Shown here: piece by piece, positions 13,123 through 28,210 of the stretch
Layout: each line of letters opens with the position of its first letter
How positions within the stretch are numbered: the first letter of the stretch is position 1
Virus record (IMG/VR): IMGVR_UViG_3300028563_000060
Location: 1 to 30,416 of that record
From: a virus
Length of the DNA stretch: 30,416 bases
Strand: one strand, 5' to 3'
The notes under the pieces: generated by a model
Databases searched by the model: none
Told to the model about the DNA's origin: nothing
What the model saw: the letters and a program-made list of their open reading frames with translations, nothing else
Position numbers and translations under genes: made by a program

Positions 13123-13611
13123 TTATTTTGTCAGTGCGTCATAGACTGCATCTGTCACGATCTCCTTCACAATGTATTTTTTCATATTTGCTTTCCGTGC
13201 CCACTCTTCCCACTGTGGATACTCGTAGAAGAAGCTTTCGACCATGTCAGGTGCAACGTTCTGCGCGTCAGTGTCATCAGGTAAGTCGTTGCTGACGTGC
13301 GACGCAAACTCTTTCACTGCGTTCATGAGCAAATCGCTGCTAACAACGTTGTAGTCATCATCGTCTTCGTAGTCGTCAAAGTCATCTTCGTCGTACCATT
13401 TTGTGGGTGTTGACTTTGGATGTTTTTCGTGTACGTAAGAGTCAACGCCACGTTCACCCTTCGACAATAACACTTCGCCACAATCATCAACGTAGTCTTC
13501 AGTCGCGACTTCGTCGGGAGGCATGTCATTAATCATCTTGACGAGCTCTTCGCGTGGAACTTCAAGATACTCACGAATTAGCGTACGTAACTTTGAAACA
13601 GTTGTTTTCAT
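13123..13611 (-). CDS. Acidic protein with shared N-terminal peptide
   Basis: A 162-residue protein that starts MKTTVSKLRTLIREYLEV, one of five N-termini in this window with the same pattern (hydrophobic at 5, Leu 8, Arg/Glu 9, Ile/Val 12). The middle is very acidic (DEDDFDDYEDDDDY) and the rest is helical (VESFFYEYPQWEEWARKANM). I place the start at 13611, where the ATG overlaps the upstream gene's TGA (AAATGA); the frame is open further up to 13698, but that part overlaps the other gene and breaks the register of the motif. No catalytic motif is visible. Proposed as a capsid-packaged protein only by analogy. Confidence 0.68.
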   Translation of the reverse strand: MKTTVSKLRTLIREYLEVPREELVKMINDMPPDEVATEDYVDDCGEVLLSKGERGVDSYVHEKHPKSTPTKWYDEDDFDDYEDDDDYNVVSSDLLMNAVKEFASHVSNDLPDDTDAQNVAPDMVESFFYEYPQWEEWARKANMKKYIVKEIVTDAVYDALTK

Positions 13612-14180
13612 TTCCACGTCGCTCTCTTTTTGGGTGAAGACGTTGAATTTGGCGGTGACATACCTAATGTCAAAGTTACACCGCTTATGCCTGCACACGT
13701 TGACATCTCGTCTAATTCTTCATTGTCTTCTTCAACGTCAAGTTCATTGATTTCGCTGCACTTTTCACAGACTTCATAGGTTATTTTTTTGTCTCCCGGA
13801 CACCTGCACTGATTTATCACGTCACCACACTCTTTGCACACCGTCTTGTAGTGATTTGTAGTAGCGCGCTTTTCAACGACCAAAGACACGTACTTTCGCA
13901 CCAAATCTTCGTTAATCTTTTCTTTTGCAGTTTGTGCAACCGCGCGTAGTAGTCTCACCTGTTCAGGAGTAAAGTCTTGAAAATCGTCTGCACCCGCATC
14001 AATCATGTACTCAATTGCAAGTTCAATGCCTCTTAGCTTTGATGCATCTATCATTGCCATGACGCGACGGGCGGTCGCCTTGATCATTCCATCAACGCCT
14101 CCACGTGTCCTTGCGTCTTCCATGCGTTCGACTGCGCGTTGCACAGGTTCAGACGAAACTAAGCGTTCATTCAAAAACAT
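13608..14180 (-). CDS. Hypothetical protein with zinc-ribbon-like cysteines
   Basis: A 190-residue protein. Residues 1-110 are helical (VQRAVERMEDARTRGG, then LLRAVAQTAKEKINEDLVRKY). Around 114-145 two CxxC pairs occur (CKECG and CEKC) with an extra CRCPG between them, so a zinc ribbon or two small knuckles are likely. The tail is Ser/Pro-rich. The stop overlaps the ATG of the next gene (ATGA). The region before ATG 14180 is AT-rich (AATATTTATATAC) with no Shine-Dalgarno and an AATATT 7 nt upstream, so it may be another leaderless first gene. DNA or RNA binding is a guess from the zinc sites. Confidence 0.65.
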   Translation of the reverse strand: MFLNERLVSSEPVQRAVERMEDARTRGGVDGMIKATARRVMAMIDASKLRGIELAIEYMIDAGADDFQDFTPEQVRLLRAVAQTAKEKINEDLVRKYVSLVVEKRATTNHYKTVCKECGDVINQCRCPGDKKITYEVCEKCSEINELDVEEDNEELDEMSTCAGISGVTLTLGMSPPNSTSSPKKRATWK

Positions 14181-14201
14181 GTATATAAATATTTCACTTT
14201 A

Positions 14202-14522
14202 CTAACATTGCGGCACATCGCTCAAAAATTTATTTGGATCGCCAACGAGTCCAAACTTCGTGATGACGCGCTTCCCGTTTACTTCGTCGACTTCGTAGAA
14301 CATGTGTCCCACGCCTGTGTCACCGATGGTGCCAAACAACCCGTTCAAAAGTCCAAAAGCGCTGATAAGTTTTACTTTTGACGATCCACATACTTGTATC
14401 GTCGGATGATCCGCAAGTTTTTCATTACAAACGTAATGTATTAACATTAGATCACTAATCGCCACCGGATCAAGTGCAAGCGCTTCGTTCAAAAAATCTA
14501 CACATTGTTGTACTGTTTTCAT
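14202..14522 (-). CDS. Conserved hypothetical protein, phage/bacterial type
   Basis: A 106-residue protein with the pattern FLNEALALDPVAISDLMLIH, CNEKLADHPTIQVC and FGLLNGLFGTIGD. I recall this arrangement (FLN-AL--DP-AI, CNE-LADHPT-QV, G-LNGLFG) from a widespread family of uncharacterised small proteins in phages and bacteria; I know of no biochemical role. The ATG at 14522 is preceded by GAGGAG, which lies in the end of the 69-residue gene upstream, so the two genes are coupled with a 1-bp gap. Confidence 0.72.
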   Translation of the reverse strand: MKTVQQCVDFLNEALALDPVAISDLMLIHYVCNEKLADHPTIQVCGSSKVKLISAFGLLNGLFGTIGDTGVGHMFYEVDEVNGKRVITKFGLVGDPNKFLSDVPQC

Positions 14523-14523
14523 G

Positions 14524-14733
14524 TCACTCCTCGCTCACAAATCTTCGCCACTCTGCCAACGCATTTTCTATCGCCTTGGCGTGTCTAATTCCTTCGGGGG
14601 ACGGTATGAGACAAAATGCCACAGAATCACGTGTGTCATTAATTGACAAAAATGCACATTTGTGTACAGTCATCGCCAACATGACTGACGCACCCGCTTC
14701 GTCTTCAACGTCTTCAATTAGTTCAGATGACAT
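14524..14733 (-). CDS. Small hypothetical protein
   Basis: A 69-residue acidic protein starting MSSELIEDVEDEAGASVMLAM, not recognised. The second half reads as a helix (EGIRHAKAIENALAEWRRFVSEE). The start is well supported by TAGGAG seven bases upstream of the ATG. Its last codons carry the ribosome site of the next gene. The 107 bp before it hold only a very short possible frame and a GTGATAAT promoter-like box. Confidence 0.7.
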   Translation of the reverse strand: MSSELIEDVEDEAGASVMLAMTVHKCAFLSINDTRDSVAFCLIPSPEGIRHAKAIENALAEWRRFVSEE

Positions 14734-14840
14734 TTTTTATCTCCTAAAAATTATCACACGACGCGCTCTTACTAAACTAGACACGGGAGCGACCAATCAA
14801 TGCCCAGAGGATCGCAGTGCTACGCGTCATGTGATTAAAT

Positions 14841-15443
14841 TCATTCCTTCTCACTCGCAGTGGCAACATAATCAGCGATTTGTATAGCTGTCGTCAAATT
14901 AGACACTTTAAGACAATATTTCTTGTTCTCGTCCACGACGTATCCATCACTCGTCTTTATGGCGACCCACTCGTCAGGAGTCAATTGTATTCCATAGTGC
15001 TGAAGCACGTACATCGTCCTGTCACCCGTCTCCATGAACGTTAGGTTATTGTTGTACGTGTACATCTCACCAAGTTTGTTTCTGCGCCAATCGTCAGTCT
15101 GTGGGATATAAAAGTTATTTTCGCTCCCGCCAGGCAAACCAACCTTGCCTAAGTCGTGGAACAGCGCAACGATGATCATGCTCTCCTGTGGAAGCTCCCA
15201 CTTGAAAGCCTTGTTGACTATCAGAATGTTTTTGAGAACGTTTAGAGTGTGATGAATTAATCCACCACTAAACGCACTATGTTTCTTGGGTGAACCTGAT
15301 GCCGGTGCAAGCGCGAGACGTTCGCTTAACTCATCTACCATCTTCAACACTGCCTCGCTGCGGTCTCCCAACTTTTCGCAAAAAGAACGAAACTTGTCAT
15401 AGTTTGCAACGATTTCTTCAGGAGACAATTCTTTGATTGACAT
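14841..15443 (-). CDS. HD-domain phosphohydrolase
   Basis: A 200-residue hydrolase of the HD superfamily. The metal-binding residues are visible: His64/His65 in GGLIHHTLNVL, His96-Asp97 in ALFHDLGKVG, and Asp near 191 in IQIADYV. HD enzymes act on nucleotides, cyclic nucleotides or nucleic-acid ends; the GGLIHHT pattern with a short domain resembles HDIG-like and YfbR-type folds more than GTP-cyclohydrolase-like ones. In a phage it could trim nucleotide pools or degrade a signalling nucleotide. TATTAT ends 8 nt before the ATG with no Shine-Dalgarno, so it is likely the leaderless first gene of the 15443-13123 cluster. Confidence 0.82.
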   Translation of the reverse strand: MSIKELSPEEIVANYDKFRSFCEKLGDRSEAVLKMVDELSERLALAPASGSPKKHSAFSGGLIHHTLNVLKNILIVNKAFKWELPQESMIIVALFHDLGKVGLPGGSENNFYIPQTDDWRRNKLGEMYTYNNNLTFMETGDRTMYVLQHYGIQLTPDEWVAIKTSDGYVVDENKKYCLKVSNLTTAIQIADYVATASEKE

Positions 15444-15501
15444 GATTATTCATAATAAACAATGTATGTTTTGACGTATAAATTTATATTGAATGCATGT
15501 C

Positions 15502-16779
15502 TCACTCGAGCGCGCGCAATCGATAATTAGTTTGTGAAACGTTTTCACTTTCTGTTTCATAGATAACATTGCTAAATTCGTTAAACTGAACTCCCGCAAG
15601 AGGTTTCTCCACAGACTTTTTGGATCGTCCTTTTTTGAATGAAGACTTTCCTTGATCCCGGCAACTCACCGGTACACTATTTTTAAGATTATTCAATAAG
15701 TTTTTTGCTGCGTTCACGTCTCTATCGTGGTGTATTCCACACTTTTCACAAACCCATTCTCTGTCATTTAACTTCAGCTTTTCGTACTTGTGTCCACAAC
15801 ATGAACATAACTTTGACGAAGCAAACCACTGATTTGCGACGAATAAGTTAATCCCACGCCATGAACATTTATAAGTTAAACACGATCGAAACATTCCGAA
15901 CGCAGCATCTCTCACTTGTTTTTGAAACTTCATTTCTAAGATTTTTAGATCTTCAATCACAATCGCTGACTTGATTTTCGATAGCGTGTTTGTGATTTGA
16001 TGAATGAAGTTTAATCTCATGTTTGAGATGTCAAAGTGAATTTTTTGAACTTTTTTCTTTGCTTTTTCTCTGTTCTTTGATCCCTTCTTTTTCTTTGAAA
16101 ATTTTCTTTGAGCTCTTTTCAACTTTTTCTCAAACCTCTTGAGTGCTCGAAGAGGTTCAATTTTTGTTCCGTCAGAAAACGTTGCAAAAGTCTTAATGCC
16201 CAAGTCGATACCGGCTGAAGTCTCAGCAATGATTTCTTTCTGCTTGACTTCTTCGACTTCTCTCGTTGTCGTAATTGATGCGAACCATCTTCCACAGCGC
16301 TCTGATACTGTCACCGAAAGAATTTTGCCTTCGACACGCTTGTCAACATTCTTTTCTTTTGTTCTCACCCATCCAAATTTTGGCAAATAAACGTAGTGAG
16401 ATTGAATTTTAATACTACTTGTCACTCGAAAACTGTCTCTTTGTCCGCGTTTTTTAAATTTTGGTAATCCAGTGCCATTTTTTCTTCGTTTCCAAAAACC
16501 TTTAAACGCCTTATCAAGATCAAGCAACGTTTGTGTAGGTACAGTTGATGAAATTTCATAAAGCCAAGTAAGATCAGTTTTCTTTAATTGAATTAATTCT
16601 TTGCTATCTCGAACGTAATTCGAAAATTTCTCATTTCCTTCATTTTCATTGAACAAGTTATTTCTTTTTGCAAGCGCCCAGTTCCAGACAAATCGACGAG
16701 CTCCCACATGTTTCCTCAACAACGTCACCGTTGCGTTATTGGGATCGAGCTCAAATTTGTATGATTGAATACGTTGCAC
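15502..16779 (-). CDS. tnpB: TnpB RNA-guided nuclease (IS200/IS605 OrfB type) no. 1
   Basis: A 425-residue protein of the family ancestral to Cas12. The RuvC triad is complete: Asp192 in GIDLGIKTFATFSDG, Glu276 in IVIEDLKILEM, Asp354 in HDRDVNAAKNLL. The zinc finger has CSCCGH (Cys325, Cys328) and CEKCG (Cys344, Cys347). The N-terminal WED-like part begins IQSYKFELDPN. No tnpA is nearby and I find no clear element ends, so it is a solitary tnpB. The GTG start at 16779 is read from TAATTT 8 nt upstream with a TGTACA -35 shared with the divergent gene. The omega RNA would be expected to cover the end of the gene and the 3' flank (about 15380-15600). Confidence 0.93.
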   Translation of the reverse strand: MQRIQSYKFELDPNNATVTLLRKHVGARRFVWNWALAKRNNLFNENEGNEKFSNYVRDSKELIQLKKTDLTWLYEISSTVPTQTLLDLDKAFKGFWKRRKNGTGLPKFKKRGQRDSFRVTSSIKIQSHYVYLPKFGWVRTKEKNVDKRVEGKILSVTVSERCGRWFASITTTREVEEVKQKEIIAETSAGIDLGIKTFATFSDGTKIEPLRALKRFEKKLKRAQRKFSKKKKGSKNREKAKKKVQKIHFDISNMRLNFIHQITNTLSKIKSAIVIEDLKILEMKFQKQVRDAAFGMFRSCLTYKCSWRGINLFVANQWFASSKLCSCCGHKYEKLKLNDREWVCEKCGIHHDRDVNAAKNLLNNLKNSVPVSCRDQGKSSFKKGRSKKSVEKPLAGVQFNEFSNVIYETESENVSQTNYRLRALE

Positions 16780-16844
16780 TAATTTTAAAATTAAACAAAA
16801 TAAACTATGATGTACATTTTATTTGTTAAGATTATATTTCAATC
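16780..16844. promoter_or_regulatory. Divergent promoters sharing one palindromic -35
   Basis: The self-complementary hexamer TGTACA (16811-16816) can serve as -35 in both directions. Plus: 16 nt, TATATT (16833-16838), 6 nt, ATG 16845. Minus: 17 nt, TAATTT (16793-16788), 8 nt, GTG 16779 of tnpB. The plus side fits the leaderless pattern well; the minus side is weaker. Confidence 0.55.
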
Positions 16845-17165
16845 ATGATAAACTGTCTCACCCAGATTATTAATCTCATGTTGGATGAAGCGATTTCGGG
16901 ACCCGACACTAGGCACGCAATTGACGTAATAGTTGCAAACATCGTGGACGACGACGTGGTAATTTCGCTCGTTGCATACGACAACTGGATGGTGCGTGCA
17001 AGCGTTGCGAAGTTCGTGAGTGGAAGAAGCTATGAACAGTTGGTTGCGCTTGAGCGCGACGATGACGAGAGGGTGAGAGAGGTTGCAATAGAACGACATG
17101 CGAGTGATTTGAACGCACTTGCTGGGCTGTACACTACGGGTGCGTTGGCGAGAATTCAAGCGTAA
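16845..17165 (+). CDS. HEAT-like repeat protein
   Basis: A 106-residue protein with two short helical repeats of the type VRASVAKFVSGRSYEQLVAL and ERVREVAIERHASDLNALA, the VR..VA pattern of HEAT-like or leucine-rich-repeat-variant units. The protein at 20898 carries the same unit near residues 75-115. Such repeats are protein-binding scaffolds. It has a promoter with TATATT 6 nt before the ATG and no Shine-Dalgarno, and its end contains the -35 of the next gene. No enzyme motif is seen. Confidence 0.65.
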   Translation: MINCLTQIINLMLDEAISGPDTRHAIDVIVANIVDDDVVISLVAYDNWMVRASVAKFVSGRSYEQLVALERDDDERVREVAIERHASDLNALAGLYTTGALARIQA

Positions 17166-17197
17166 ACACGTTGGCAACGGGTGTATAAATTATTAAC
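17161..17197 (+). promoter_or_regulatory. Leaderless promoter of the exonuclease gene
   Basis: CGTAAA (17161-17166), 17 nt, TATAAA (17184-17189), 8 nt, GTG 17198. The -35 overlaps the stop codon of the preceding gene. Confidence 0.55.
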
Positions 17198-18166
17198 GTG
17201 GCAACCGAACGTCCTGTTCTAATAATTGACGCATTAAACGCTTTTTCGAGGGCGTGGGCCGTCTTCCCACAACTCACGTGTGATGGAGCGCAATTCGGGG
17301 GTACTATTGGCTTTTTAAAAACGCTTCGAAAGCTCGTCAATGAAATTCAGCCCAAACAAGTCTACATTTGTTGGGAGAGCGGTGGAAGTACTAAACGTCG
17401 TAAGATTTTTAAAGATTATAAAATGGGTCGTGCTCCGGAAAAACTTAATCGATTTTATGGCGAAGATATCCCCGAAAGTCAAGAAAATCGTTCGTTTCAA
17501 ACAGCCGAGCTCATCGGAATTCTAAAACACGTTCCCGTTTGTCAACTGTACGTGCCTGACTGTGAGGGCGACGACGTCGTAGCATACTTGTGTAAGAATA
17601 AATTTAATAACGTTGATAAAGTTGTCGCATCGAGCGACAAAGACTTTTATCAATTATTAGATGCAAAGACACGTATTTATAGCTTTCATAAGAAGACGTT
17701 CATTCTCGCTGAACAAGTGTTTGATGAGTTCAGAATTTCGACAAGAAATTGGGCGGTTGCGAAGGCGATAGTTGGCGAGCCGATAGGTGGTGACCATATT
17801 CCGGGCATTGATGGTGTAGGGTTTAAAACCGCCGCCAAGTGTTTTCCAATGTTGGGAACTGACACCGACGTCTTAATTCAACACTTGTTTGACTACTCAC
17901 AGGTAAATTTAGGAAAGCAAAAGACATACAAAAAAGTTCTTGAGGGTGCTGACATCATCAAGCGAAACTATCGCTTAGTGTACCTCGGCGACAACACGTT
18001 GTCATTGCAACAACAGACGCAAATTGACAATCAAATGTCAAAGTTTTCTCCCAAGACTAACAAGCTTGAAATCATGCGAACGTTAGCGAAGCACGGAATC
18101 TCTGACTTCAACGTTGACGACTTCGTGTACTGCTTCAACTGTATTGAAGGCATTCAACAACGATAA
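17198..18166 (+). CDS. 5'-3' exonuclease / flap endonuclease (T4 RNase H-like)
   Basis: Removes RNA primers and 5' flaps during lagging-strand synthesis. The 322-residue protein has the FEN/PIN acidic residues in order: Asp11 in LIIDALNAF, basic RRKIFKDYKMGR (67-78), the DCEGDD cluster at 121-126, SSDKDF with Asp147 and Asp149, and a helix-3-turn-helix DNA-binding motif from Asp199 (GDHIPGIDGVGFKTAAK). Length is close to T4 RNase H (about 305). The start is GTG at 17198; no ATG in the first 40 codons would keep Asp11. It is followed after 5 bp by the ADP-ribosyltransferase gene. Confidence 0.88.
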   Translation: MATERPVLIIDALNAFSRAWAVFPQLTCDGAQFGGTIGFLKTLRKLVNEIQPKQVYICWESGGSTKRRKIFKDYKMGRAPEKLNRFYGEDIPESQENRSFQTAELIGILKHVPVCQLYVPDCEGDDVVAYLCKNKFNNVDKVVASSDKDFYQLLDAKTRIYSFHKKTFILAEQVFDEFRISTRNWAVAKAIVGEPIGGDHIPGIDGVGFKTAAKCFPMLGTDTDVLIQHLFDYSQVNLGKQKTYKKVLEGADIIKRNYRLVYLGDNTLSLQQQTQIDNQMSKFSPKTNKLEIMRTLAKHGISDFNVDDFVYCFNCIEGIQQR

Positions 18167-18171
18167 TTGAC

Positions 18172-18846
18172 ATGCGCATTCGACTTGGCGACCTTCGTAA
18201 GTTAATCAGAGAAGCGGGTGCGCTCGACACGGTTGCTTTTGCTGACGAGCGTGAGTACCTTGGCGTTGAAGAACACGATAACGAGATTGAAAAGCGATTG
18301 TACAAAAATTTAGGTGCATATTTGCGCGATAACATTCCACTTGACAATAGCGACGTTGAGTTAATTAAAAAATTTATTGTCTCCGGCGAGTACGAAGACG
18401 TGTTCAAAGAACCCACAAGTGAATACGTGTTTCGTGGCATGGCTGTTGGCGAAGAGTACATAGACGAAATAACGCCAAAATTTGAACTGTCTCCTGATGA
18501 GGGAATGACAGACGTGTCGTATGATTTCAATCCCAAGTACGTTGAAAAGGTCAGTTCGTGGACGCTTGACAAGAGCGTGGCGAGGACGACTTTTGGGTTA
18601 GAACAAGTTACAAAGCAAAAACCGTATGTTCTTGTTCTTGTTGCAAGAGTGTCTGACAATCCGAATAAATTTGTCTCCGGACCAGATGGATTGTACGACG
18701 TAGGTGGACTTCAACAGTTCGTCGATGAACAAGAAGTCATCGGAATTGGCGACATCAAAGTGTGTCGCATAGTGTGGGAACGCGCGATCAAGAAGTCAAA
18801 TTATCGAGAATTGCTCAACAAACAAGCAAAATCATTGAACATCTGA
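18172..18846 (+). CDS. Putative ADP-ribosyltransferase with capsid-targeting-like N-terminus
   Basis: A 224-residue protein with the three marks of the R-S-E class of ADP-ribosyltransferases: Arg88 in EYVFRGM, an S-x-T-like SSWT at 128-131 followed by a helix (LDKSVARTTFG), and the E-x-E pair Glu186/Glu188 in VDEQEVIG, then IKVCRIVW. A VLVLVARVSDNP strand lies between them. These enzymes move ADP-ribose from NAD+ to proteins or nucleic acids; T4 Alt, ModA and ModB modify host RNA polymerase and other targets. The N-terminus MRIRLGDLRKLIREAG belongs to the shared five-protein motif. T4 Alt is packaged in the capsid and injected, so this enzyme may be too. The gene follows the exonuclease by 5 bp and is convergent with 18849. 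Confidence 0.66.
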   Translation: MRIRLGDLRKLIREAGALDTVAFADEREYLGVEEHDNEIEKRLYKNLGAYLRDNIPLDNSDVELIKKFIVSGEYEDVFKEPTSEYVFRGMAVGEEYIDEITPKFELSPDEGMTDVSYDFNPKYVEKVSSWTLDKSVARTTFGLEQVTKQKPYVLVLVARVSDNPNKFVSGPDGLYDVGGLQQFVDEQEVIGIGDIKVCRIVWERAIKKSNYRELLNKQAKSLNI

Positions 18847-18848
18847 TC

Positions 18849-19133
18849 TCACGCGTTTTTACTTAACCTTGACATTACATTATTAATCACGTCCTGTGGC
18901 ACGTTTCCGCGCATCATGTCATTCGCATAGCTCACGAACTCTGGGTCTGTCGCTGACTTCACTTCGAGCTCAGGTGCTGCCGCATAAAATTCGTTCATCA
19001 ATGCGTGGTACACGTCGTCAGCGGTGTGCATGTGGGGATTGTACTTGTCGAGCAACGTGTACGTTCCTGAGTGTGCACGCTCGTTCAGTGTTTGCTTCAC
19101 AATTTCTCTTAGTTCTGAAAGCTTGAGCTTCAT
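18849..19133 (-). CDS. Small protein with shared N-terminal peptide
   Basis: A 94-residue protein starting MKLKLSELREIVKQTLNERA, in register with four other N-termini in this window. The rest is helical (TADDVYHALMNEFYAAAPELE, then VPQDVINNVMSRLSKNA) and has no cysteine or catalytic motif. I take ATG 19133 instead of an upstream in-frame start at 19172, because 19133 lies 7 bp after the stop of the gene before and puts the motif at residue 1. It meets the ADP-ribosyltransferase gene tail to tail with a 2-bp gap; no strong terminator is seen between them. Confidence 0.68.
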   Translation of the reverse strand: MKLKLSELREIVKQTLNERAHSGTYTLLDKYNPHMHTADDVYHALMNEFYAAAPELEVKSATDPEFVSYANDMMRGNVPQDVINNVMSRLSKNA

Positions 19134-19140
19134 GTTGAGA

Positions 19141-19743
19141 TTAAGTATGCTCCCGTCGCCCACACACAACATATCGATTGTTAATGTATGCTATGTCCCA
19201 CTTCTTGTTCAATGAACGCGAGTTCCAGACGCGTAGCGCATCGTCTGATGGAACGAGCGATGACTTCACTGTCACGCGAAGCAGCTCGGCGATTTCGAAA
19301 CACTTGTCGTACATCATGATGCCGTAGCCATTATTTCTGTGCTCTTCATCAAGTGATGAGTGTGTCTCATAAAACGATTCGCCAGGGCGCTCGTCGAGAC
19401 ACATCTCGACGTGTCCCACTTCTTTGCTCCCGTCGAACCACTCAACGAGAATTGAGCGTTGTCTATTGACGATGTGCGGTGTCATCGATTGGAAAATGCA
19501 ACTTTTCGTACTCTTCAACGTCTTGAAGATCAGTTTGTCGAGTTGTTCTGCTTCTCCGGGAAGAAGATGCGTGAGCGAGCACAAGTTCTCAACGATTGGA
19601 AAATGCAACTTTTCGTACTCTTCAACGTCTGAAGACAATTTGTCGAGTTGTTCTGCTTCTCCGGGAAGAAGATGCGTGAGCGAGCACAAGTTCTCAACGA
19701 TTCCAAGCAAATTGCGGTATTGTTCGTGTGTTGTAATTTTCAT
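19141..19743 (-). CDS. HigA-like N-terminal repeat fused to GNAT acetyltransferase
   Basis: One frame of 200 residues made of two parts. Residues 1-50 resemble the N-terminal helical domain of HigA-type antitoxins (HEQYRNLL, then LPGEAEQLDKL and DVEEYEKLHFPI). Residues 16-37 recur at 51-72 owing to a tandem DNA duplication, and the second copy ends in a shifted frame (IFKTLKSTKSCIFQS) that leads into MTPHIV at residue 87. From there to the end is a GNAT domain with the acetyl-CoA loop RNNGYG and a typical LRVWNSRSLNKKW motif. A GNAT protein alone could start at 19485. The ATG at 19743 overlaps the upstream stop (CGATGA). Whether the fused chain is made, or two proteins, is open. Confidence 0.68.
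   Translation of the reverse strand: MKITTHEQYRNLLGIVENLCSLTHLLPGEAEQLDKLSSDVEEYEKLHFPIVENLCSLTHLLPGEAEQLDKLIFKTLKSTKSCIFQSMTPHIVNRQRSILVEWFDGSKEVGHVEMCLDERPGESFYETHSSLDEEHRNNGYGIMMYDKCFEIAELLRVTVKSSLVPSDDALRVWNSRSLNKKWDIAYINNRYVVCGRREHT
19486..19697 (-). repeat. Near-perfect 105/107-bp tandem duplication
   Basis: Unit 19486-19592 (107 bp) and unit 19593-19697 (105 bp) are nearly identical apart from a few changes around 19534-19545 and 19640-19650, with a net 2-bp difference that changes the frame. AATCG occurs at both ends and at the junction, suggesting duplication by short homology. Confidence 0.85.
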
Positions 19744-19955
19744 CGAATCTTACCCGCAACCGTTAACAGCCTTACCATTGTCGACACAGGTACTGACACG
19801 TGACTTGCACGTCCATCGAGAGACACTGAAGTGATAAAAATGTAGTCTCCATCAACCTCGACGTTCGCAGTCTGACGATTGTCATGGTGGCGCACGACTT
19901 CATTCTTTTCCGGGAGATTTGAAAATCTCCACGTTGAACCGCTCGGTAATGGCAT
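19740..19955 (-). CDS. Small hypothetical protein
   Basis: A 71-residue protein starting MPLPSGSTWRFSNLPEKNEV, not recognised. It is beta-rich (VEVDGDYIFITSVSLDG), like a small barrel or sheet. I choose ATG 19955 because it overlaps the upstream TAA (TAATG) and has GGAG at a good distance; a GTG seven codons earlier is the alternative. Its TGA overlaps the ATG of the GNAT fusion gene. It is the fourth gene of the minus-strand unit from 20801. Confidence 0.66.
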   Translation of the reverse strand: MPLPSGSTWRFSNLPEKNEVVRHHDNRQTANVEVDGDYIFITSVSLDGRASHVSVPVSTMVRLLTVAGKIR

Positions 19956-20179
19956 TAGATCTCGCTCCACTTGCACTCTTCTGTGCGTAGAAATCGTCGT
20001 GTCTGACCATCGTCAAATCGTAACGATGGATATTCAACGAGTTTCACGTGTTCGCTTTTCAAATGCTGACAATCAAGTTTACACTTTGTGACAAATCCTT
20101 TGAGCTGTGGACATGTCTCGTCACAATGTTCATTGTCGAACGTGACGATTGGTAACTTTCGAAATGATTTATTTGACAT
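19955..20179 (-). CDS. Small Cys-rich protein, probable zinc binding
   Basis: A 74-residue protein starting MSNKSFRKLPIVTFDNEH. Four cysteines in CDETC-x8-CKLDC, with His beside them (EHC, CQHLK), suggest a zinc site or a small metal-binding knuckle. The last 30 residues are basic and strand-forming (YPSLRFDDGQTRRFLRTEE). ATG 20179 overlaps the upstream stop (TAATG) and AAGG lies upstream; the frame is open to 20215 but that part overlaps the gene before. No family is recognised. Confidence 0.66.
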   Translation of the reverse strand: MSNKSFRKLPIVTFDNEHCDETCPQLKGFVTKCKLDCQHLKSEHVKLVEYPSLRFDDGQTRRFLRTEECKWSEI

Positions 20180-20571
20180 TATGATACCTTTCTGACTGAA
20201 GTTATGTAAAACCAACGATCTGGATCGCGTTCAGACGTCACGTTCACTTCTTCTTCAAGAACTTCAATAACAACGTATGGTTCGAGATATACGTTGTTGA
20301 GATCAAGCACGTGTTGAACTTTGTCACCAACAGAAATTCCATTATGGATGACTTTTTGCTCCGCCTTCAAACACTGATCACAACGTTGCAACCACCCACC
20401 CTCATGATCTTCGCGAAGAACGACTGGGTTACACTCTTTGTCAAAAAAAGCACCACACACCCATCGAGTGCCGAAGTGCGTCGTCAAAAGTCTTGGACAA
20501 AAGACGCCAGGTTCACTTGCACACGTCTTTTCACCGCAGTCTATCACTATGTTCAGAGTTCGTTTTGCCAT
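20179..20571 (-). CDS. Hypothetical protein with CxxC motif
   Basis: A 130-residue protein starting MAKRTLNIVIDCGEKTCASE. It has a possible zinc site formed by CGEKTC, FCPRLL and CDQCLKAEQK, and a C-terminal beta half (VGDKVQHVLDLNNVYLEPYVVIEVLEEEV, shown here as a strand-rich segment between about 76 and 108). Not recognised. The start is fixed by a leaderless promoter with TATATT 6 nt before the ATG. The stop overlaps the next gene (TAATG), which starts a chain of coupled small genes. Confidence 0.68.
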   Translation of the reverse strand: MAKRTLNIVIDCGEKTCASEPGVFCPRLLTTHFGTRWVCGAFFDKECNPVVLREDHEGGWLQRCDQCLKAEQKVIHNGISVGDKVQHVLDLNNVYLEPYVVIEVLEEEVNVTSERDPDRWFYITSVRKVS

Positions 20572-20605
20572 GATAGCAATATATCACTTTCTTCAAAAAT
20601 TTACA
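20572..20605 (-). promoter_or_regulatory. Leaderless promoter of the 20571 gene
   Basis: TGTAAA (20605-20600), 16-nt spacer TTTTTGAAGAAAGTGA, TATATT (20583-20578), 6 nt, ATG 20571 on the minus strand. It is one of three promoters here with the TTTTTGA spacer start. Confidence 0.7.
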
Positions 20606-20606
20606 C

Positions 20607-20801
20607 TTATGCAACGCCAAACCTGCGCATCACAACTTCAAAGCACTTTTCGCACTCAACGTCTTCGTCAGGCTCAAGTTCAGACACGTGTTTCGCTGAA
20701 TACTTTGGGATCACGTTCAATGCACGAGCATGTGATTCACACAAACACTCAGGTACGTATTCTTTTTTTGTCATCATATCATGACTTCTTAGATTTGCCA
20801 T
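20607..20801 (-). CDS. Small protein with C-terminal CxxC
   Basis: A 64-residue protein starting MANLRSHDMMTKKEYVPECL with CLCESHA and CEKCFEVVMRRFG, so four cysteines and a His may bind zinc. Not recognised. Its start is supported by a promoter with TATACT 7 nt before the ATG and no Shine-Dalgarno. The next gene has its own promoter in the 35-bp gap, so this is a single-gene unit or is read through. Confidence 0.66.
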   Translation of the reverse strand: MANLRSHDMMTKKEYVPECLCESHARALNVIPKYSAKHVSELEPDEDVECEKCFEVVMRRFGVA

Positions 20802-20836
20802 GAATAATAGTATAACAAAATTCTCAAAAATTTACA
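20802..20836 (-). promoter_or_regulatory. Leaderless promoter of the 20801 gene
   Basis: TGTAAA (20836-20831), 16-nt spacer TTTTTGAGAATTTTGT, TATACT (20814-20809), 7 nt, ATG 20801 on the minus strand. The spacer is almost identical to that of the 5795 promoter. Confidence 0.7.
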
Positions 20837-20897
20837 CAATTGAAAAGAGTTTATTTTTGATTTCCAGAAGGCATGTGACATATATTTATGTTGTAGT

Positions 20898-22157
20898 ATG
20901 AAACTAAAGCTTTCACATCTGGAGAACATTGTGAACAACGTACGCAACGAAAACAAGCTGTCAACGTTATTTTGTGAAGAGGTAAAACGATCGTTTGGTA
21001 GCTGCATTCGAGGCTACGTTCCAAGAGCAATCGCCGAGAGCGCGAACTACATGCTCGACATGAACGAACTCACGCACGTTGGCAAGGCGCCGAGCGTGAA
21101 GGTTTCGTTGTTCGTTGAGTGTCTGAAGCACAGCGACGAGCACGTTCGAAAGCTTGCGACTCGATTGGTGCCCGAGAAGTTTTTGGACAACATGTTGAAA
21201 GACAAGTCTCCCGCCGTCAGGGGAGCCGCTGCAGAGCGCGTCGGTATAAAGTCGCTCAAAGAAGCTTTGTCAATGTGGCCGTCAGACGATCAGATGCGCG
21301 CTACTTACTTGACGCGGTTGCTTGACGAGCCGACGCTTAAAGACGGTGACAACGAAGAGACGCTTGAACTACACGCCGACAAGCGAATTGGTGACCCAGG
21401 GAAACAACAACAATTTCCTGAATTGTCTGATCAGTGGTACGAGACACAAGCATTCAAACTTTTACAAGATTATGATGGAAACATTGAGTACTCATGGGAA
21501 CGTGGTGCTTGTAATAACTACTGCAATGCAATGAAGGCAACGAACGGCGTCGAGATCGATCGTGAGAAGCTTTATAAAAAGTTGATGGACCTAATCGAGA
21601 AGCGTGAAGACTTGGCTCTTGAAGAGGACGTGTTTCACGAACCAAGAAAAGTGTTGAATGAAATAACGGGTAGATCAGCAACAACATCATATAAAAATGT
21701 ACGACATCGTAAAGTTGAACGTGAAGAAGAAGAACAACGTGGTAAATTTGGACGAGTTTTGTCATGGGACGAAATGAAAAATGAAAACATTGACGCACTT
21801 ATTAATAGTGTGATCATAAAAGAAAGTGATGATTGGGACAACGTTGAAACACCTGAACAGCAACAAGATCGTTGGACAAAAATTGCTGAGCAACCTGAAA
21901 ATAAACCTTTCATCGACGCGATCAAAAACGCAGGAGACCTAAAAGAACTCGCTCGCGCAAAGCGAAGCCTGCAAAAGGCTGACGACAACGGTGAAATAAA
22001 CATGCCTGCAGGCGTGTGGATGAAGTATTACGATGAACGCAAAGACGAACTAAAAGCAATGAACGAAAAGCCAATGTCTTCCGCGGACTCACGTATGGAC
22101 CGCTTATTGCGAACACGAGACAGTTCAGGGAAAGCCACGCCAAGGAAATTCCAATGA
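20898..22157 (+). CDS. Large protein with shared N-terminal peptide and HEAT-like repeats
   Basis: A 419-residue protein starting MKLKLSHLENIVNNVRNE, the same N-terminal pattern as four other proteins here. Residues 55-140 hold HEAT-like units (EHVRKLATRLVPEKFLDNML, then SPAVRGAAAERVG), related to the protein at 16845. The rest is helical and charged, with QQQDRWTKIAEQPENKPFID near 310 and a basic tail (SRMDRLLRTRDSSGKATPRK). No enzyme motif is visible. Size, charge and the N-terminal peptide suit an internal virion protein, but this is inference. A TATATT lies 11 nt before the ATG and no Shine-Dalgarno is seen. The stop overlaps the Dps-like gene (AATGA). Confidence 0.68.
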   Translation: MKLKLSHLENIVNNVRNENKLSTLFCEEVKRSFGSCIRGYVPRAIAESANYMLDMNELTHVGKAPSVKVSLFVECLKHSDEHVRKLATRLVPEKFLDNMLKDKSPAVRGAAAERVGIKSLKEALSMWPSDDQMRATYLTRLLDEPTLKDGDNEETLELHADKRIGDPGKQQQFPELSDQWYETQAFKLLQDYDGNIEYSWERGACNNYCNAMKATNGVEIDREKLYKKLMDLIEKREDLALEEDVFHEPRKVLNEITGRSATTSYKNVRHRKVEREEEEQRGKFGRVLSWDEMKNENIDALINSVIIKESDDWDNVETPEQQQDRWTKIAEQPENKPFIDAIKNAGDLKELARAKRSLQKADDNGEINMPAGVWMKYYDERKDELKAMNEKPMSSADSRMDRLLRTRDSSGKATPRKFQ

Positions 22158-22801
22158 ATGACGAATGCACAATACAAACGCAACGCATGCTCACTGAGTG
22201 GGAAGACGTGAGCAGGCCTGAACTTTCAGTGTTGCTCACTTGGCTACGTGCACTCTACTTCACGCACCAGACACATCATTGGATCAGCAAAGGTGATAGT
22301 TTTTTCGGAAATCACCTGCTTTTTCAGAGAATTTATGAAGAAGTGTTGCCTGAAATTGATGCAGTCGCAGAAAAGAGCGTTGGACTCGGCGACGAAAACA
22401 ACGTAGACTTGCACAAGCAACTTGGCACTGCGCTTGAAATCGTATTCAGCAACTCGAGCGTCAACGTAATTCCTTCTCCTGACGACCTTGCAAAGAAGTC
22501 GCTGAAGCTTGAGCTCGAATTCCTGTGTGCGTGCGAAGTGCTTCGAAAATCAATGAAGACAAATGGCACTTTGACGACGGGAATCGATAATCTTGTGGCT
22601 AGTGTGTGTGATCTACATGAATCTCATGTGTATTTGTTGAAGGCCGCTTGTGGTGGAAATGTCATGCAACCACACGTAGATGACGTGCAAGTTGAGCACG
22701 AAAAGGCTGTGAATCCACGCCTCATCACGTTTGATGACATTGGAATGCCCGAACGCATGAACGACGAGTGGAAGTCAGCAAATAATTACTACGTGAAATG
22801 A
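22154..22801 (+). CDS. Dps/ferritin-like protein
   Basis: A 215-residue protein with the Dps fingerprint QTHHWISKGDSFFGNHLLFQ and then EIDAVAEKSVGLG. Aligned to E. coli Dps, the ferroxidase ligands His51, His63, Asp78 and Glu82 match His42, His54, Asp69 and Glu73, but the Asp67 position is Gln58, so iron oxidation may be weakened. Dps proteins bind iron and protect DNA from oxidants; phage versions are known but their job is unclear. The chain is about 45 residues longer than usual, with an extra C-terminal arm (VNPRLITFDDIGMPERMNDE). The ATG overlaps the upstream stop and has AGGA as ribosome site. Confidence 0.78.
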   Translation: MNDECTIQTQRMLTEWEDVSRPELSVLLTWLRALYFTHQTHHWISKGDSFFGNHLLFQRIYEEVLPEIDAVAEKSVGLGDENNVDLHKQLGTALEIVFSNSSVNVIPSPDDLAKKSLKLELEFLCACEVLRKSMKTNGTLTTGIDNLVASVCDLHESHVYLLKAACGGNVMQPHVDDVQVEHEKAVNPRLITFDDIGMPERMNDEWKSANNYYVK

Positions 22802-22852
22802 TATTTTTTGTTTTCATTTTTTACTGTCGGTGAAACGATATGTAATAAGACA

Positions 22853-23347
22853 ATGAACAATCTTTACGATCGCATTTCAACCGCCATAAATGATTTCCGA
22901 GCCGGAAGAATAACGCTTGAACAATATTCGGCTGTTGTTGCAGGCACTGCACCTGCGCAAGAAGAAGTAATAAGTCATAAACCCATCGAACAAATCGTCA
23001 ACGTTGTGACAGCATCAATTGAAACACCCGCTCCTCCGATTGTGCAACAACCAATCAATCCTCCCACGACTGCCATTGTAAAAGTTGTTGAACAAGCCGT
23101 GCCCGTTGAACTTCCAATGCAAGAAGTCACAAGTACGGGAGCTAATGAACACAAAAATCATAAGCACATGACGTTCTTCAAGGCATGGGATCACATGAAA
23201 GCGGGCAAAGTCATATACAATGACAAGCGATTGTTGATTGGATATCGCCTAAACAACGTGATTGAGTGGCAAGTCAACGGTGAATGGGTTGTTTGTCCCA
23301 TTACAGTTTCAGAAGCAGTCGCAACCGATTGGTATGTAGAAAAGTGA
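22853..23347 (+). CDS. Protein with C-terminal Tad2/DUF2829-like domain
   Basis: A 164-residue protein. Residues 1-30 form a helix (LYDRISTAINDFRAGRITLE); 35-100 are a Pro/Val-rich linker. Residues 105-164 read MTFFKAWDHMKAGKVIY ... VNGEWVVCPI ... SEAVATDWYVEK, which follows the DUF2829/Tad2 plan (F-eAl--lk-Gk-v at the start, an A-x-DW-v at the end). Tad2 proteins sequester the signalling molecules of the Thoeris defence system. The usual basic R-x-x-W after the Gly-Lys is not clear here, so the match is partial. I start at ATG 22853 (an upstream TTG frame would add 15 residues); TGTAAT lies 6 nt upstream. Confidence 0.5.
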   Translation: MNNLYDRISTAINDFRAGRITLEQYSAVVAGTAPAQEEVISHKPIEQIVNVVTASIETPAPPIVQQPINPPTTAIVKVVEQAVPVELPMQEVTSTGANEHKNHKHMTFFKAWDHMKAGKVIYNDKRLLIGYRLNNVIEWQVNGEWVVCPITVSEAVATDWYVEK

Positions 23348-23351
23348 TGCG

Positions 23352-23546
23352 TTAACTACGCTCTTCACTTAGCTCATCGTACAGTTCAACGTCACCCATC
23401 TTTTCATGAGCTTTTTTCGCATCTTCTCTCTCAAACGTGTGCGAAAAATTGCAGTCAGGGCAATAAACAACCTCTTCGGGATTTTCAACAGTCGCGAATT
23501 TTTCAAGAAGCAGTTCATAGATTCGCATTTCAACAAGTTTGCTCAT
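23352..23546 (-). CDS. Small hypothetical protein
   Basis: A 64-residue acidic protein starting MSKLVEMRIYELLLEKFATV with a single CPDC and a nearby His (NFSHTFERED), perhaps half a zinc knuckle that needs a dimer. Not recognised. It is convergent with the Tad2-like gene (4-bp gap) and divergent from the phosphoesterase gene. The AT-rich upstream (TGTATA, 16 nt, TTATAT) ends 3 nt before the ATG, closer than in the other units, and no Shine-Dalgarno is seen. Confidence 0.62.
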   Translation of the reverse strand: MSKLVEMRIYELLLEKFATVENPEEVVYCPDCNFSHTFEREDAKKAHEKMGDVELYDELSEERS

Positions 23547-23586
23547 AACATATAAATATTCACAACATTAGTATACAATTTTAATA

Positions 23587-24219
23587 ATGACTTTGTTCCT
23601 AAGCAGCGATCACCACTATTTTCATCGCAATATAATTTCATTTTGCTCCCGCCCATTCACGTCTATTGAACACATGAATGACGAACTTGTGTCACGTTGG
23701 AACGCGCGCGTCAAATCTAACGACTGCGTTTTATACTTGGGTGACGTCACGCTCATAAACTATCACAAAGACGCGTTGTGTGAAAAGCGCCCTGATTTCG
23801 TTGAGCTCATCAAAAGTCTGAACGGGAGAATAATTTTAATTCCTGGTAATCACGACGACAAGCGAATGTTTTCGTTCTATGAAGATTGCGGGTGGCACGT
23901 CGTCAGAAACAAATTACATTCCGGTAAACAGAAAACGATGTACGGCTTCATTTTAAATGACGTAATGTTTTGTCACAATTATAATGCAGCCGTGATGAGC
24001 GACAATGCCGGAAAAGTTGTCGTACACGGACACGCGCATGGAGCTCGACAACACAACGAAGGCGATCCACGAACTTACATCGACGTTGGCGTTGACTGTT
24101 GGAATTATACTCCCGTCGAGGTGTCTAACGTGTTGGACGAACAACGTGCAAAGCTCATTGAAGAACATGTCAAGACACTATACCATAATCAAGAAGTACT
24201 AACTCGCCCGACGTATTAA
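23587..24219 (+). CDS. Calcineurin-like metallophosphoesterase, YfcE-like short form
   Basis: A 210-residue hydrolase with Asp8/His10 in SSDHHYFHRNII, YLGDVT near 51-56, GNHDD near 94, FCHN and GHAHG, and a closing DVGVDCWNYTPVE. The SSDHHFxHxNI start and VD-WNY-P end mark a phage/bacterial phosphoesterase subfamily different from the enzyme at 4666. The substrate is unknown. TATACA lies 9 nt before the ATG, without a Shine-Dalgarno. The 3' end overlaps the convergent gene at 24170 by 50 bp, so the two messages could form a duplex. Confidence 0.88.
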   Translation: MTLFLSSDHHYFHRNIISFCSRPFTSIEHMNDELVSRWNARVKSNDCVLYLGDVTLINYHKDALCEKRPDFVELIKSLNGRIILIPGNHDDKRMFSFYEDCGWHVVRNKLHSGKQKTMYGFILNDVMFCHNYNAAVMSDNAGKVVVHGHAHGARQHNEGDPRTYIDVGVDCWNYTPVEVSNVLDEQRAKLIEEHVKTLYHNQEVLTRPTY

Positions 24220-24811
24220 GACCCCATTGACGATGGGTAACCAGATCGCCCACATCTATGCGAGTTTCATGTTCAAAACGTTCTAATAACTTTAAAAACC
24301 ACCCTCTGTTTTTGCCGCGATATTTGTGATGTTTTGTATCATTTTGTACAAACACTGTGCGTTTGTTAATGTCATAATCACACATGTCTTCAAGCTCATC
24401 TTCGTTAAAACCGATTATGTTTTCAAATTGTTTTTTATTGACTGGATTTACGAGTTCGCTCACTAACCACGCATATGCATCATCGACACGTAAAACTTTT
24501 GTAATATGCGAAGAAATAGACGTTGTTGAAAGTTGAGAATACGTTAGATATTCTATCTTGTTTTGTTCAACGCCTTGTTGTGAATTTGCAATCTTCAACG
24601 CCGATTTTGATGTCAACGTAAACACGTCTCTTGACGAACTTCCAAGAAGTTGAAGACGATCTGATGCGTATTCACGTGCTTTTTTGTTTTGTATTCCAAA
24701 ACAATTTGTCGACACATCATCAGTGATTAATTTTACAAATTCATTCCAACGAAACGCATCATTCGTTTCTTGTCGTATGCGTTCACGAAGTTGTTTGATC
24801 GTAACAATCAC
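24170..24811 (-). CDS. Protein with shared N-terminal peptide and kinase-like DYG tail
   Basis: A 213-residue protein if read from the GTG at 24811, starting MIVTIKQLRERIRQETND, which puts the shared N-terminal motif at residue 1; an ATG nine codons upstream (24838) is the alternative. The middle has no motif I know. The C-terminus THRQWGLNTSGELVLLDYG resembles the catalytic-loop to DFG stretch of kinase-fold proteins (H-x3-N, then a hydrophobic strand and D-Y-G), but without a visible glycine-rich loop or the upstream Lys and Glu. A degenerate kinase-like or ATP-binding fold is possible. The last 50 bp overlap the phosphoesterase gene on the other strand. Confidence 0.6.
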   Translation of the reverse strand: MIVTIKQLRERIRQETNDAFRWNEFVKLITDDVSTNCFGIQNKKAREYASDRLQLLGSSSRDVFTLTSKSALKIANSQQGVEQNKIEYLTYSQLSTTSISSHITKVLRVDDAYAWLVSELVNPVNKKQFENIIGFNEDELEDMCDYDINKRTVFVQNDTKHHKYRGKNRGWFLKLLERFEHETRIDVGDLVTHRQWGLNTSGELVLLDYGIVS

Positions 24812-24926: not shown

Positions 24927-25601
24927 TCATGATTGACGAGCTCTCGCCTCCTCAACGATTTTCTTCGTTGCCGAACTTCCCACTCGTGTCGCACCTGCGT
25001 TCAAAAACATCTCGACTTGTTCAAGCGTCTTGATGCCTCCTGACGCCTTCACTTGACACTTTGAACCCTCACACCACTTTGTCATGAGCTCAACGTCATA
25101 CAGCGTTGCACCGTGTGAAGCAAATCCCGTTGACGTCTTCACAAAGTCAGCGTTCGTCTTCACGGCCAATTGACATAGCATTTGAATGTAATCACCGGTG
25201 TTGCACGTCTCAAAGATCACCTTGACGATGCCGCTACGAGCGTGAACGGCGTTGTGTAAGCGTTCCATTTCACAAGCCACAGCGTACCAATCACCGTTGA
25301 GCACGTTCGACGTGTTGATGACGTAGTCAATTTCGTCAGCGCCGTGATCTAACGCTAACGTCGCTTCGTACTCTTTTGTGTGCAAACACGAGTTGCCATG
25401 TGGAAATCCAACGACGCTTGCGAGCTTCACGCAATCACCCACATAGCGCTTTGCTGCTTGCACGTCGCATGGCTTCACGCACGCTGACGCCACCTCGAAC
25501 GTGACTGCAACGTCGAGTCCATCCTCAAGCTCCTGTTGCGTCAAGTGAGGAGCGAGAATTGCGTGATCAATCGTTGACGCTATTTGTTCAGATGTTCGCA
25601 T
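24927..25601 (-). CDS. deoC: Deoxyribose-phosphate aldolase
   Basis: Splits 2-deoxyribose 5-phosphate into glyceraldehyde 3-phosphate and acetaldehyde in deoxynucleoside breakdown. The 224-residue protein has the DeoC residues: Asp92 in DEIDYVIN, Schiff-base Lys155 in DFVKTSTGF, and Lys185 in VKASGGIKT; IDHAILAP at the start and FPHGNSCLHTK also match. It could turn host deoxynucleosides into carbon or energy. The ATG has AAGGAT as ribosome site and overlaps the end of the HAD gene by 14 bp. It is last in a four-gene unit (beta-helix protein, MazG, HAD, DeoC). An ACGCTCA/TGAGTGT hairpin follows the stop. Confidence 0.93.
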   Translation of the reverse strand: MRTSEQIASTIDHAILAPHLTQQELEDGLDVAVTFEVASACVKPCDVQAAKRYVGDCVKLASVVGFPHGNSCLHTKEYEATLALDHGADEIDYVINTSNVLNGDWYAVACEMERLHNAVHARSGIVKVIFETCNTGDYIQMLCQLAVKTNADFVKTSTGFASHGATLYDVELMTKWCEGSKCQVKASGGIKTLEQVEMFLNAGATRVGSSATKKIVEEARARQS

Positions 25602-26139
25602 TTTCTTTATCCTTATTCAACACTGCAATCGCTCTTTTGACATCGTACGGTGTGAGCCCGTATTTCGCTGACGTCTGCACTAAGTTGCCACGCAGCGTTC
25701 CCATGTCATCATCGTCGTCGAGTATGACAAACGTAATGTCTTCGCCAGGAAGTAGCATTGCGTCGTACATCCACTCGCTTATTTCTTCCCCACGAATGGC
25801 GCCACACAATTCCGGAGTCATTGACGTGACTTCGCCAACAAATCCATGATACTCTAACGCGTCTATCAAGTCGTCAACGTTTCTTCCCAGGCGCCACGAA
25901 GACGATATGACGACTTTTGCACCTGTCTTCTCAATTATTTGGTTCAGCAATATGACTTTTGTGCGATCAATCATGCGCAAGTCGCTAACATCGACGTTTG
26001 AACTTGCGTGTTCACACCTAAACTTGTGCTCCCGTTGTGTCAACGGCCCTTCGAACCATCCTTCACGCTCCAAAAATGGAGTTGAGTTCAACACACCATC
26101 AAAATCAAGAAAAATTATCTTCGTTGTCAATATGTACAC
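25588..26139 (-). CDS. HAD-superfamily phosphatase
   Basis: A 183-residue hydrolase with motif I LDFDGVL (nucleophile Asp12, general acid Asp14), motif II VVISSSWR and an acidic motif FVILDDDDDM. It belongs to the short HAD group in which SSSWR follows motif I, found in phages and in nucleic-acid or nucleotide phosphatases; the substrate cannot be set. The start GTG at 26139 follows the MazG stop directly (TAAGTG), with AAGAAG upstream. Overlap with deoC suggests joint expression; a nucleotide-salvage role fits the neighbours. Confidence 0.82.
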   Translation of the reverse strand: MYILTTKIIFLDFDGVLNSTPFLEREGWFEGPLTQREHKFRCEHASSNVDVSDLRMIDRTKVILLNQIIEKTGAKVVISSSWRLGRNVDDLIDALEYHGFVGEVTSMTPELCGAIRGEEISEWMYDAMLLPGEDITFVILDDDDDMGTLRGNLVQTSAKYGLTPYDVKRAIAVLNKDKENANI

Positions 26140-27145: not shown

Positions 27146-28210
27146 TTATCCCGCGAGGGGACAAGGATCAAGAGTTGTCTTTGATTGACATTGCTCTTTG
27201 AGGACTTCAGACGGCCTCTTTACAAGATCTCTTTTCTCTTGCAAACTGATCACTTCAGGCGCCACAGCAATGTTAAATGCTGCATTCACATCTGCGTGAT
27301 CAACGTGTTCACAGTGTGTGCACTTGAACACCTTTCCTTTGCGATTGTCTTTGTCGACGTGACCGCATCGGGAGCACTTCTGCGAAGTCCATTTCGGATC
27401 AATCACTTGAAGCTCAACGCCCCACTTTTTGGCCTTGTATTCGATCATTGTTTTGAACATGAAGAATGGCCAAGAGTTTAAGACGAAATTGCTCTGCTTT
27501 TTAAATTTTACCGTGCATCGCTTTCGAATGCCTTTTAGATTTTCGATTTTTATTCCTGTGTTGTTTTCCTTCGCTTCTTTGACGATTGAAGTCGTGAGCT
27601 TGTGTAAGACGTCGACTGTCTTTCGATGCTCACGGTTTGCTATCTTTTTGACTTCTTTAAACATTCCACGACGTTGTAAGCGTTTTCTGATTGCACGATA
27701 TTTTTTCTTGATATGAGGAACTTGTTTTCCGAGCTTTTTCACTTTGCCCGTTGAATGATTTGCAACAACAATTGAATGTGAAGTCGAGTTCAAATCAATA
27801 CCAACGAAATTCTGTGACTTCATCACTTCAACATCAGGAATTGTGACTTGAACGCATGCCCAAACTTTGTCAAGTTCAATCTGATTTACCTTTGTGAAGT
27901 CTGTGCGAAACCAAAAATTGAAAGAACTTTTAAGACAAGGAAGTCGAATTGTTTTGTTCTTGAGATCAACTTTGACATTCTGTCCAGGAATGGTTAGTTT
28001 GACTTTCTTTGGATTAACTTTCTTGATCGTTTTACTTTTTCCATACTTTCTGATGATTTGATTTGCAATCTCAGATTTTAATCCAAATTGCTTGACAGAC
28101 TTTGTTGAACAAGAACCGTATTCAAAAGCAAACTGTGCAACCTTGACTGCGTTTTCAAAAAGAGAATGATCAAGTTGCAACTTGTGTTTGACTTTAAACG
28201 TTAGGATCAC
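27146..28210 (-). CDS. tnpB: TnpB RNA-guided nuclease no. 2
   Basis: A 354-residue TnpB of a different subgroup from the one at 15502. The RuvC triad is intact: Asp139 in FVGIDLNSTSHSIVV, Glu223 in GIKIENLKGIR, Asp307 in DHADVNAAFNIA. The zinc finger is CSRCGH (279, 282) and CTHCEH (297, 300). The N-terminus (MILTFKVKHKLQLDHSLFEN) is the WED-like part. The start is GTG 28210, preceded by an 18-bp palindrome and AATATT. The stop lies inside the right-end hairpin, so the omega RNA would end just past the gene, with the guide taken from the flank near 27110-27145. An active nuclease is likely from the residues. Confidence 0.92.
   Translation of the reverse strand: MILTFKVKHKLQLDHSLFENAVKVAQFAFEYGSCSTKSVKQFGLKSEIANQIIRKYGKSKTIKKVNPKKVKLTIPGQNVKVDLKNKTIRLPCLKSSFNFWFRTDFTKVNQIELDKVWACVQVTIPDVEVMKSQNFVGIDLNSTSHSIVVANHSTGKVKKLGKQVPHIKKKYRAIRKRLQRRGMFKEVKKIANREHRKTVDVLHKLTTSIVKEAKENNTGIKIENLKGIRKRCTVKFKKQSNFVLNSWPFFMFKTMIEYKAKKWGVELQVIDPKWTSQKCSRCGHVDKDNRKGKVFKCTHCEHVDHADVNAAFNIAVAPEVISLQEKRDLVKRPSEVLKEQCQSKTTLDPCPLAG

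Follow-up and report, generated by a model that had tools for sequence, protein, structure and literature searches.

A shared N-terminal leader on unrelated proteins of uncultured T4-type phages, a probable capsid-targeting propeptide

Five genes with one leader

The window, the whole stretch of DNA that we analysed, is the complete virus record IMGVR_UViG_3300028563_000060 (30,416 bases). It carries T4-type replication genes: a gp41-type helicase, UvsX, gp32 and a 5'-3' exonuclease. Five other genes of the window begin with a similar short N-terminal peptide, which we call the leader; the protein behind it we call the body or cargo (Table 1).

A first-pass annotation, made from the letters of the sequence, had aligned the five N-termini without gaps, called the rest of the proteins unrelated and proposed a signal that sends them into the capsid. 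The gap-free register holds. Four of the genes start with ATG, at 13611 (minus strand), 18172 (plus), 19133 (minus) and 20898 (plus). The fifth starts with GTG at 24811 (minus), and its residue 1 therefore reads V in plain translation. The span 13123-24811 given for the set mixes gene ends with gene starts. The peptides lie where the five genes begin. The bodies are indeed unrelated: BLASTP clustering without the first 24 residues keeps them apart, and they have no Pfam or PHROG family in common.

Table 1. Leaders and cargo genes of the five leader-bearing proteins of the window.
Feature	Position	Strand	Remarks
Leader 1, MKTTVSKLRTLIREYL	13564..13611	-	possible gp21-type site IRE14, before Y
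Cargo gene 1	13123..13611	-	162-residue acidic protein, no family found (Pfam, PHROG)
Leader 2, MRIRLGDLRKLIREAG	18172..18219	+	gp21-type site IRE14, before A
Cargo gene 2	18172..18846	+	224-residue protein, no family found
Leader 3, MKLKLSELREIVKQTL	19086..19133	-	followed by LNE18, before R; LLE18 in the G002 orthologue
Cargo gene 3	18849..19133	-	94-residue protein, no family found (Pfam, PHROG); G002 orthologue 85% identical
Leader 4, MKLKLSHLENIVNNVR	20898..20945	+	IDE18, before E, in the G054 orthologue
Cargo gene 4	20898..22157	+	419-residue HEAT-repeat protein; HEAT E=7.6e-5
Leader 5, MIVTIKQLRERIRQET	24764..24811	-	GTG start; no canonical site; weakest, least certain member
Cargo gene 5	24170..24811	-	213-residue protein; phrog_4301 E=1.7e-9

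The nearest named relative by helicase is the Microcystis phage Mel-JY01. Closest to the window is a group of contigs, here the window clade, made up of the window, G001, G002 and G057. G002 is a 90-kb near relative with a helicase 91% identical to the window's. Contigs G054 and G055 are nearer relatives as well, with replication genes about 44-64% identical. A further contig, 3300028800_000289, is L264 below.

The leader recurs in related phages

To score the leader we used a profile built from the five window peptides only. Residues 3-16 were scored, hence neither the start Met nor residue 2 can help the score. Gene starts were compared with all internal positions at a threshold of at least 12. 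In the window, 5 of 45 starts reach this threshold, as does 1 of 5,838 internal positions. In G002 it is reached by 8 of 174 gene starts and by none of 14,912 internal positions. Most of the G002 matches lie on proteins that have no counterpart in the window, and thus they confirm the signal independently. Since the five peptides had been spotted by eye among about 45 genes, one might suspect a chance resemblance or an artefact of translation starts. The result in G002 argues against this suspicion so strongly that we reject it.

More copies, which the first-pass annotation had suggested looking for, turned up both in G002 and in more distant T4-like contigs. Its set of five was too small, because leaders extend beyond these proteins and beyond the window. 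G002 has about 11 leader proteins. In the distant contigs the core L-R-x-I-I-R-E-E stands on up to about 11 proteins per contig, and the variants of these phages have the common core L-R/K-x-I/L-I-R/K-E-E. Intermediate forms occur in G054 and G055, for example MRITKEALRRIIREA and MKITATQLRRIIKEELEAVNEA.

Single genes in large contigs can be picked out by the same five-peptide profile. Among the 146 genes of G007 the best match is 86580 (MKITKSDLQEIIKEEA), which scores 18.6 (the next scores 9.6) and lies two genes upstream of the gp21 protease. The sole match among the 449 genes of G022 (292 kb), 256050 (MKIKVSTIRRIIREEY), adjoins the protease. In G009 there are two matches, and one of them is the gene in the gp67/gp68 slot.

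A strict DNA pattern for MKKSELRxxIREE matched 91 IMG/VR stretches; genomes of bacteria and archaea, 257 Gb in all, had 0 matches. A tblastn search with a gp67-slot protein and with a 25-residue leader found no named phage that carries the leader. The part of the literature that we covered holds no paper with the letters of the leader, which is weak evidence; the other matches there concern work on T4, SPN3US and P1 only.

One leader, many bodies

The bodies behind the leader are highly diverse. Clustering of 117 leader proteins by what follows residue 24 gives 108 clusters. Any given Pfam family occurs in at most one of these proteins and any given PHROG in at most three. Leaders might be the N-terminal domain of a single ancient, duplicated family, the bodies of which have diverged beyond recognition. 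The kinase-like paralogues described below do have leader and body in common, as such a family would. Outside these paralogues the idea is unsupported: the bodies range from about 45 to 600 residues, include folds as distinct as DnaJ-WGR and HEAT repeats, and give nearly as many clusters as proteins. We consider a common family very improbable.

Within the window, the cargo of gene 1 resembles G054 72773-73615 over its C-terminal 83 residues (35% identity). The cargo of gene 2 resembles ADP-ribosyltransferases by eye only (FRGM / SSWT / EQEVI; an R-S-E-like motif). Profiles did not confirm this likeness. The protein has no significant match in Pfam, PHROG or PDB and no homologue in the phages or viral contigs searched. 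Cargo 5 is weakly kinase-like (phrog_2361 Ser/Thr kinase, E=0.044) and has three paralogues in G002.

Two cargo proteins deserve a remark of their own. The HEAT-repeat protein of the window (20898) is 94% identical to a G002 protein, and it is without about 200 internal residues of the latter, including the zinc-ribbon-like part CPQCGNDSFNCTC. Most of this internal segment is retained in L264. In G054 (75816-76853; L395 18855-19850) a DnaJ J domain comes immediately after the leader and is itself followed by a WGR domain; this protein is a candidate injected co-chaperone.

The leader is kept while bodies diverge or are exchanged

Orthologues of the window proteins generally keep their leader. 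For 20898 it is retained in G002, L264, G054 and G055, down to a body identity of 37% (G054, G055). The 13611 leader is found again in L264 (MKTTVSKLRTLIREYIEL) and in the distant homologue G054 72773 (KLTLGQLRTVLAE, before A; site LAE, before A), and the 19133 leader in G002 79598 and L264 8375. Among the three G002 homologues of 24811, two keep an LIRE/IRQ leader.

Downstream of the exonuclease gene a body has been swapped. The window has MRIRLGDLRKLIREAG (18172) at this place and L264 has MRLRLSELRTIIRKALHE, before A (7295). The flanks are closely related and the DNA that codes for the leader can be aligned, while the bodies are unrelated. Single-sequence structure models of the two proteins were uninformative and were not used; their predicted local distance difference test scores are 36 (window 18172) and 32 (L264 7295).

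The alignable leader DNA at this swap is what one would expect if the segment were kept at the level of DNA, as a recombination handle for the exchange of accessory genes, with no function as a protein. What is conserved, however, is an amino-acid pattern: the hydrophobic positions and a protease-type site persist, also in orthologues that are only 37% identical. A pure recombination handle is thus the least credible of the explanations that we keep, slightly less so than the common family.

A cleavage-type site follows the leader

T4 gp21-type proteases cut after (L/I)xE. We looked for this site in 78 non-identical MKKSELRQIIREEI-type (MKKSEL-type) proteins from 14 contigs. The contigs had been chosen by residues 1-13 only, and so the choice did not favour the (L/I)xE part. 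These proteins hardly vary over residues 1-14, and after about residue 21 conservation is near background. An (L/I)xE ends at residues 16-21 in 66 of the 78 (85%), compared to 9.8% of other genes. When residues 15-30 were shuffled 2000 times, the mean number was 15 and the maximum 30. The position of the site varies (17, 19, 20), and the next residue is A, G or S in 28 of the 66 cases (background 18%). In the window, a gp21-type site follows the leader in three of the five proteins.

The capsid protein itself is informative about the protease. The Glu at which gp23 is cleaved, aligned with T4 Glu65 (LTE65, before A), is present in each of the 14 capsid proteins from environmental contigs that were aligned; its usual form is [ILV]xE. 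This indicates that the specificity of the protease has been kept.

Leader genes crowd around the head module

Terminase, portal, protease, scaffold and capsid genes were placed with iterated profiles seeded from Mel-JY01. An S77 (gp21-type) prohead protease, the second thing that the first-pass annotation had suggested looking for, is present in 17 of 32 leader-bearing contigs, including all five that are longer than 75 kb. It also occurs in G004, G006, G007 and G009. None was found on the contigs of the window clade, which lack the head module.

Leader genes crowd around the genes for the gp21-type protease, the gp22 scaffold and the gp23 capsid protein. In G046, G048, G041 and G023 leader genes fill the interval from the protease to the scaffold or capsid gene; G046 and G048 have about eight between protease and scaffold. 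The six leader genes first found in G022 all lie at most 9 kb from the protease. We compared the distance of leader genes to the protease with that of random short genes by permuting gene positions. Leader genes are nearer in G022 and G023 (0/5000), G025 (0.0004), G026 (0.008), G006 (0.016) and G024 (0.028).

The crowding matters for another explanation, in which the leader is a docking helix for some other assembly or host complex (the portal, the tail, the outer capsid surface or the host RNA polymerase) and not a cleaved signal for the capsid lumen. A short common helix could serve any such hub. In G009 and G024 some leader genes are indeed a long way from the head module, and two of the window peptides have no cleavage site. 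A docking helix nevertheless leaves much unexplained: the (L/I)xE of variable position with its A, G or S, the sharp end of conservation, and the concentration of leader genes between protease and scaffold. We regard it as unlikely, though it is the most serious competitor of a capsid-targeting signal.

Three features of head genes were seen along the way. In L147, L127, L171 and L159 (G028, G029, G037 and G038), all leader-bearing, the frame of the S77 protease is broken by two to three in-frame TGA codons, a pattern that suggests that TGA codes for an amino acid in these contigs. Terminase genes, portal genes or both come in several pieces in G023, G032, G041, G046, G048 and G053 (L219, L249-L250, L254, L236-L237, L238 and L132); the splits are possibly introns, inteins or homing insertions. 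The head module of Mel-JY01 (L259) contains a gene annotated as ribosomal protein S21 at 22183-22410, two genes after the prohead protease.

Other genes of the window

The window has two TnpB/OrfB genes (IS605-type, with a Cas12f-like TNB domain) at 15502-16779 and 27146-28210, both on the minus strand. Their proteins are 25-30% identical over the aligned parts, and neither has a counterpart in G002. The protein encoded at 19141-19743 (minus) contains a nearly perfect tandem duplication of the segment IVENLCSLTHLLPGEAEQLDKL; G002 matches its C-terminal part only. Further phage-borne genes encode an HSP20 chaperone (5882-6250, minus), a ferritin/Dps-like protein (22154-22801, plus), a DeoC-type aldolase (24927-25601, minus) and an RNA-repair-type phosphatase of the HAD_SAK_2 type (25588-26139, minus).

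Discussion

We propose that the leader serves a lineage of T4-type phages as a capsid-targeting propeptide, and we put the probability of this reading at roughly 0.8. The additional copies, their place at the head module, the (L/I)xE site, the conserved capsid Glu, and leaders that stay while bodies are swapped all support the proposal of the first-pass annotation.

The mechanism could be as follows. The leader is probably a short amphipathic helix with some component of the prohead core as its binding partner. Any protein that bears the leader would thereby become part of the prohead. There, a gp21-type (S77) protease would cut after (L/I)xE, at or just behind the helix, and leave the mature cargo inside the head. 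With the DNA, the cargo would be injected at the next infection. One leader could in this way be reused on many unrelated bodies, which would be gained, lost and swapped behind it. Helix formation, the binding partner and a protease encoded by the window's own phage are steps that we infer.

Several observations weigh against a capsid-targeting propeptide. The contigs of the window clade, like G054 and G055, showed neither an S77 protease nor a gene for portal, scaffold or capsid protein, and the protease of the window clade is therefore putative. Mel-JY01, read over its whole length, has the protease and no clear leader set. Proximity to the protease is not significant in G007, in G009 or in the majority of the short contigs. 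In the window, 20898 has no (L/I)xE within 30 residues and 24811 no canonical site, and in G006 a second site is present in only one of three strict leaders. The hydrophobic moment of single leaders is not clearly above that of shuffled ones, and for this reason we treat the amphipathic helix as a suggestion. One homologue of 24811, G002 11936, has the body without the peptide; homologues of this kind in other phages, if still packaged, were among the things that the first-pass annotation had named as a refutation. The other two G002 homologues keep a leader. We found no isolate of these phages and no virion proteomics.

The closest parallel is the capsid-targeting sequence (CTS) of T4. Ten residues suffice for targeting; residues 4 and 7 act in targeting, 8 and 10 in processing (PMC9026906). 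The T4 internal proteins Ip1-Ip3 have only the leader in common, and each of the three inhibits a GmrSD restriction enzyme of its own; many internal-protein genes of T-even phages were identified via this leader (PMC12373910). The leader described here and the CTS of IPI, IPII, IPIII and Alt are alike in that a short N-terminal peptide with an (L/I)xE-type end stands on unrelated bodies, and in that the cargo is polymorphic. An S77 gp21 protease also occurs in the same genomes as the leader, in leader-bearing relatives of the window. In contrast to the 10 residues of T4, the leader has 12-20, with the core L-R-x-I-I-R-E-E and often a second possible site. A single contig can have up to about 11 cargo genes with this leader, some inside the protease-scaffold interval. 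The T4 sequences (MKTYQEFIAE, before A, in IPII and IPIII; MELITELFDE at the N-terminus of Alt) are without the L-R-x-I-I-R-E core, and so the leader is no member of the MKTYQEFIAE family by sequence. Our best reading is that it works like the T4 CTS but has another sequence and much more cargo, a reading under which packaging, cleavage and injection are all expected.

Other systems are less similar. Several leader genes occupy the gp67/gp68 slot beside gp21 (G007 86580, G009 176344), which recalls T4 gp67, gp68 and gp22. For most leader proteins, however, no relationship to gp67 or gp68 was detected, and many are encoded elsewhere. In the giant phages SPN3US and phiKZ the prohead protease removes N-terminal propeptides from inner-head proteins, among them paralogues with identical N-termini (PMC5694885). 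Those propeptides are mostly longer than 100 residues and stand on few proteins, whereas the leader is short and stands on unrelated ones. In P1, an N-terminal segment of at most 30 residues directs DarB into the head (PMC9024508). The Dar proteins have no common N-terminal consensus, unlike the leader proteins with their strong one.

With less assurance we favour a wider claim. In many uncultured T4-type phages one leader may act as an all-purpose, exchangeable address tag on injected proteins. Their set would be open-ended, with up to about ten per contig and more than 100 unrelated bodies in a small sample, so that the effector repertoire could be listed from sequence. If capsid targeting is correct, the leader would supply new packaging tags, and the requirements on a core-binding peptide could be tested by comparison. 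It would also be a direct way to list candidate anti-defence and host-takeover proteins that uncultured phages inject. Through the leader, a large and so far hidden set of injected proteins may come within reach of sequence analysis alone.

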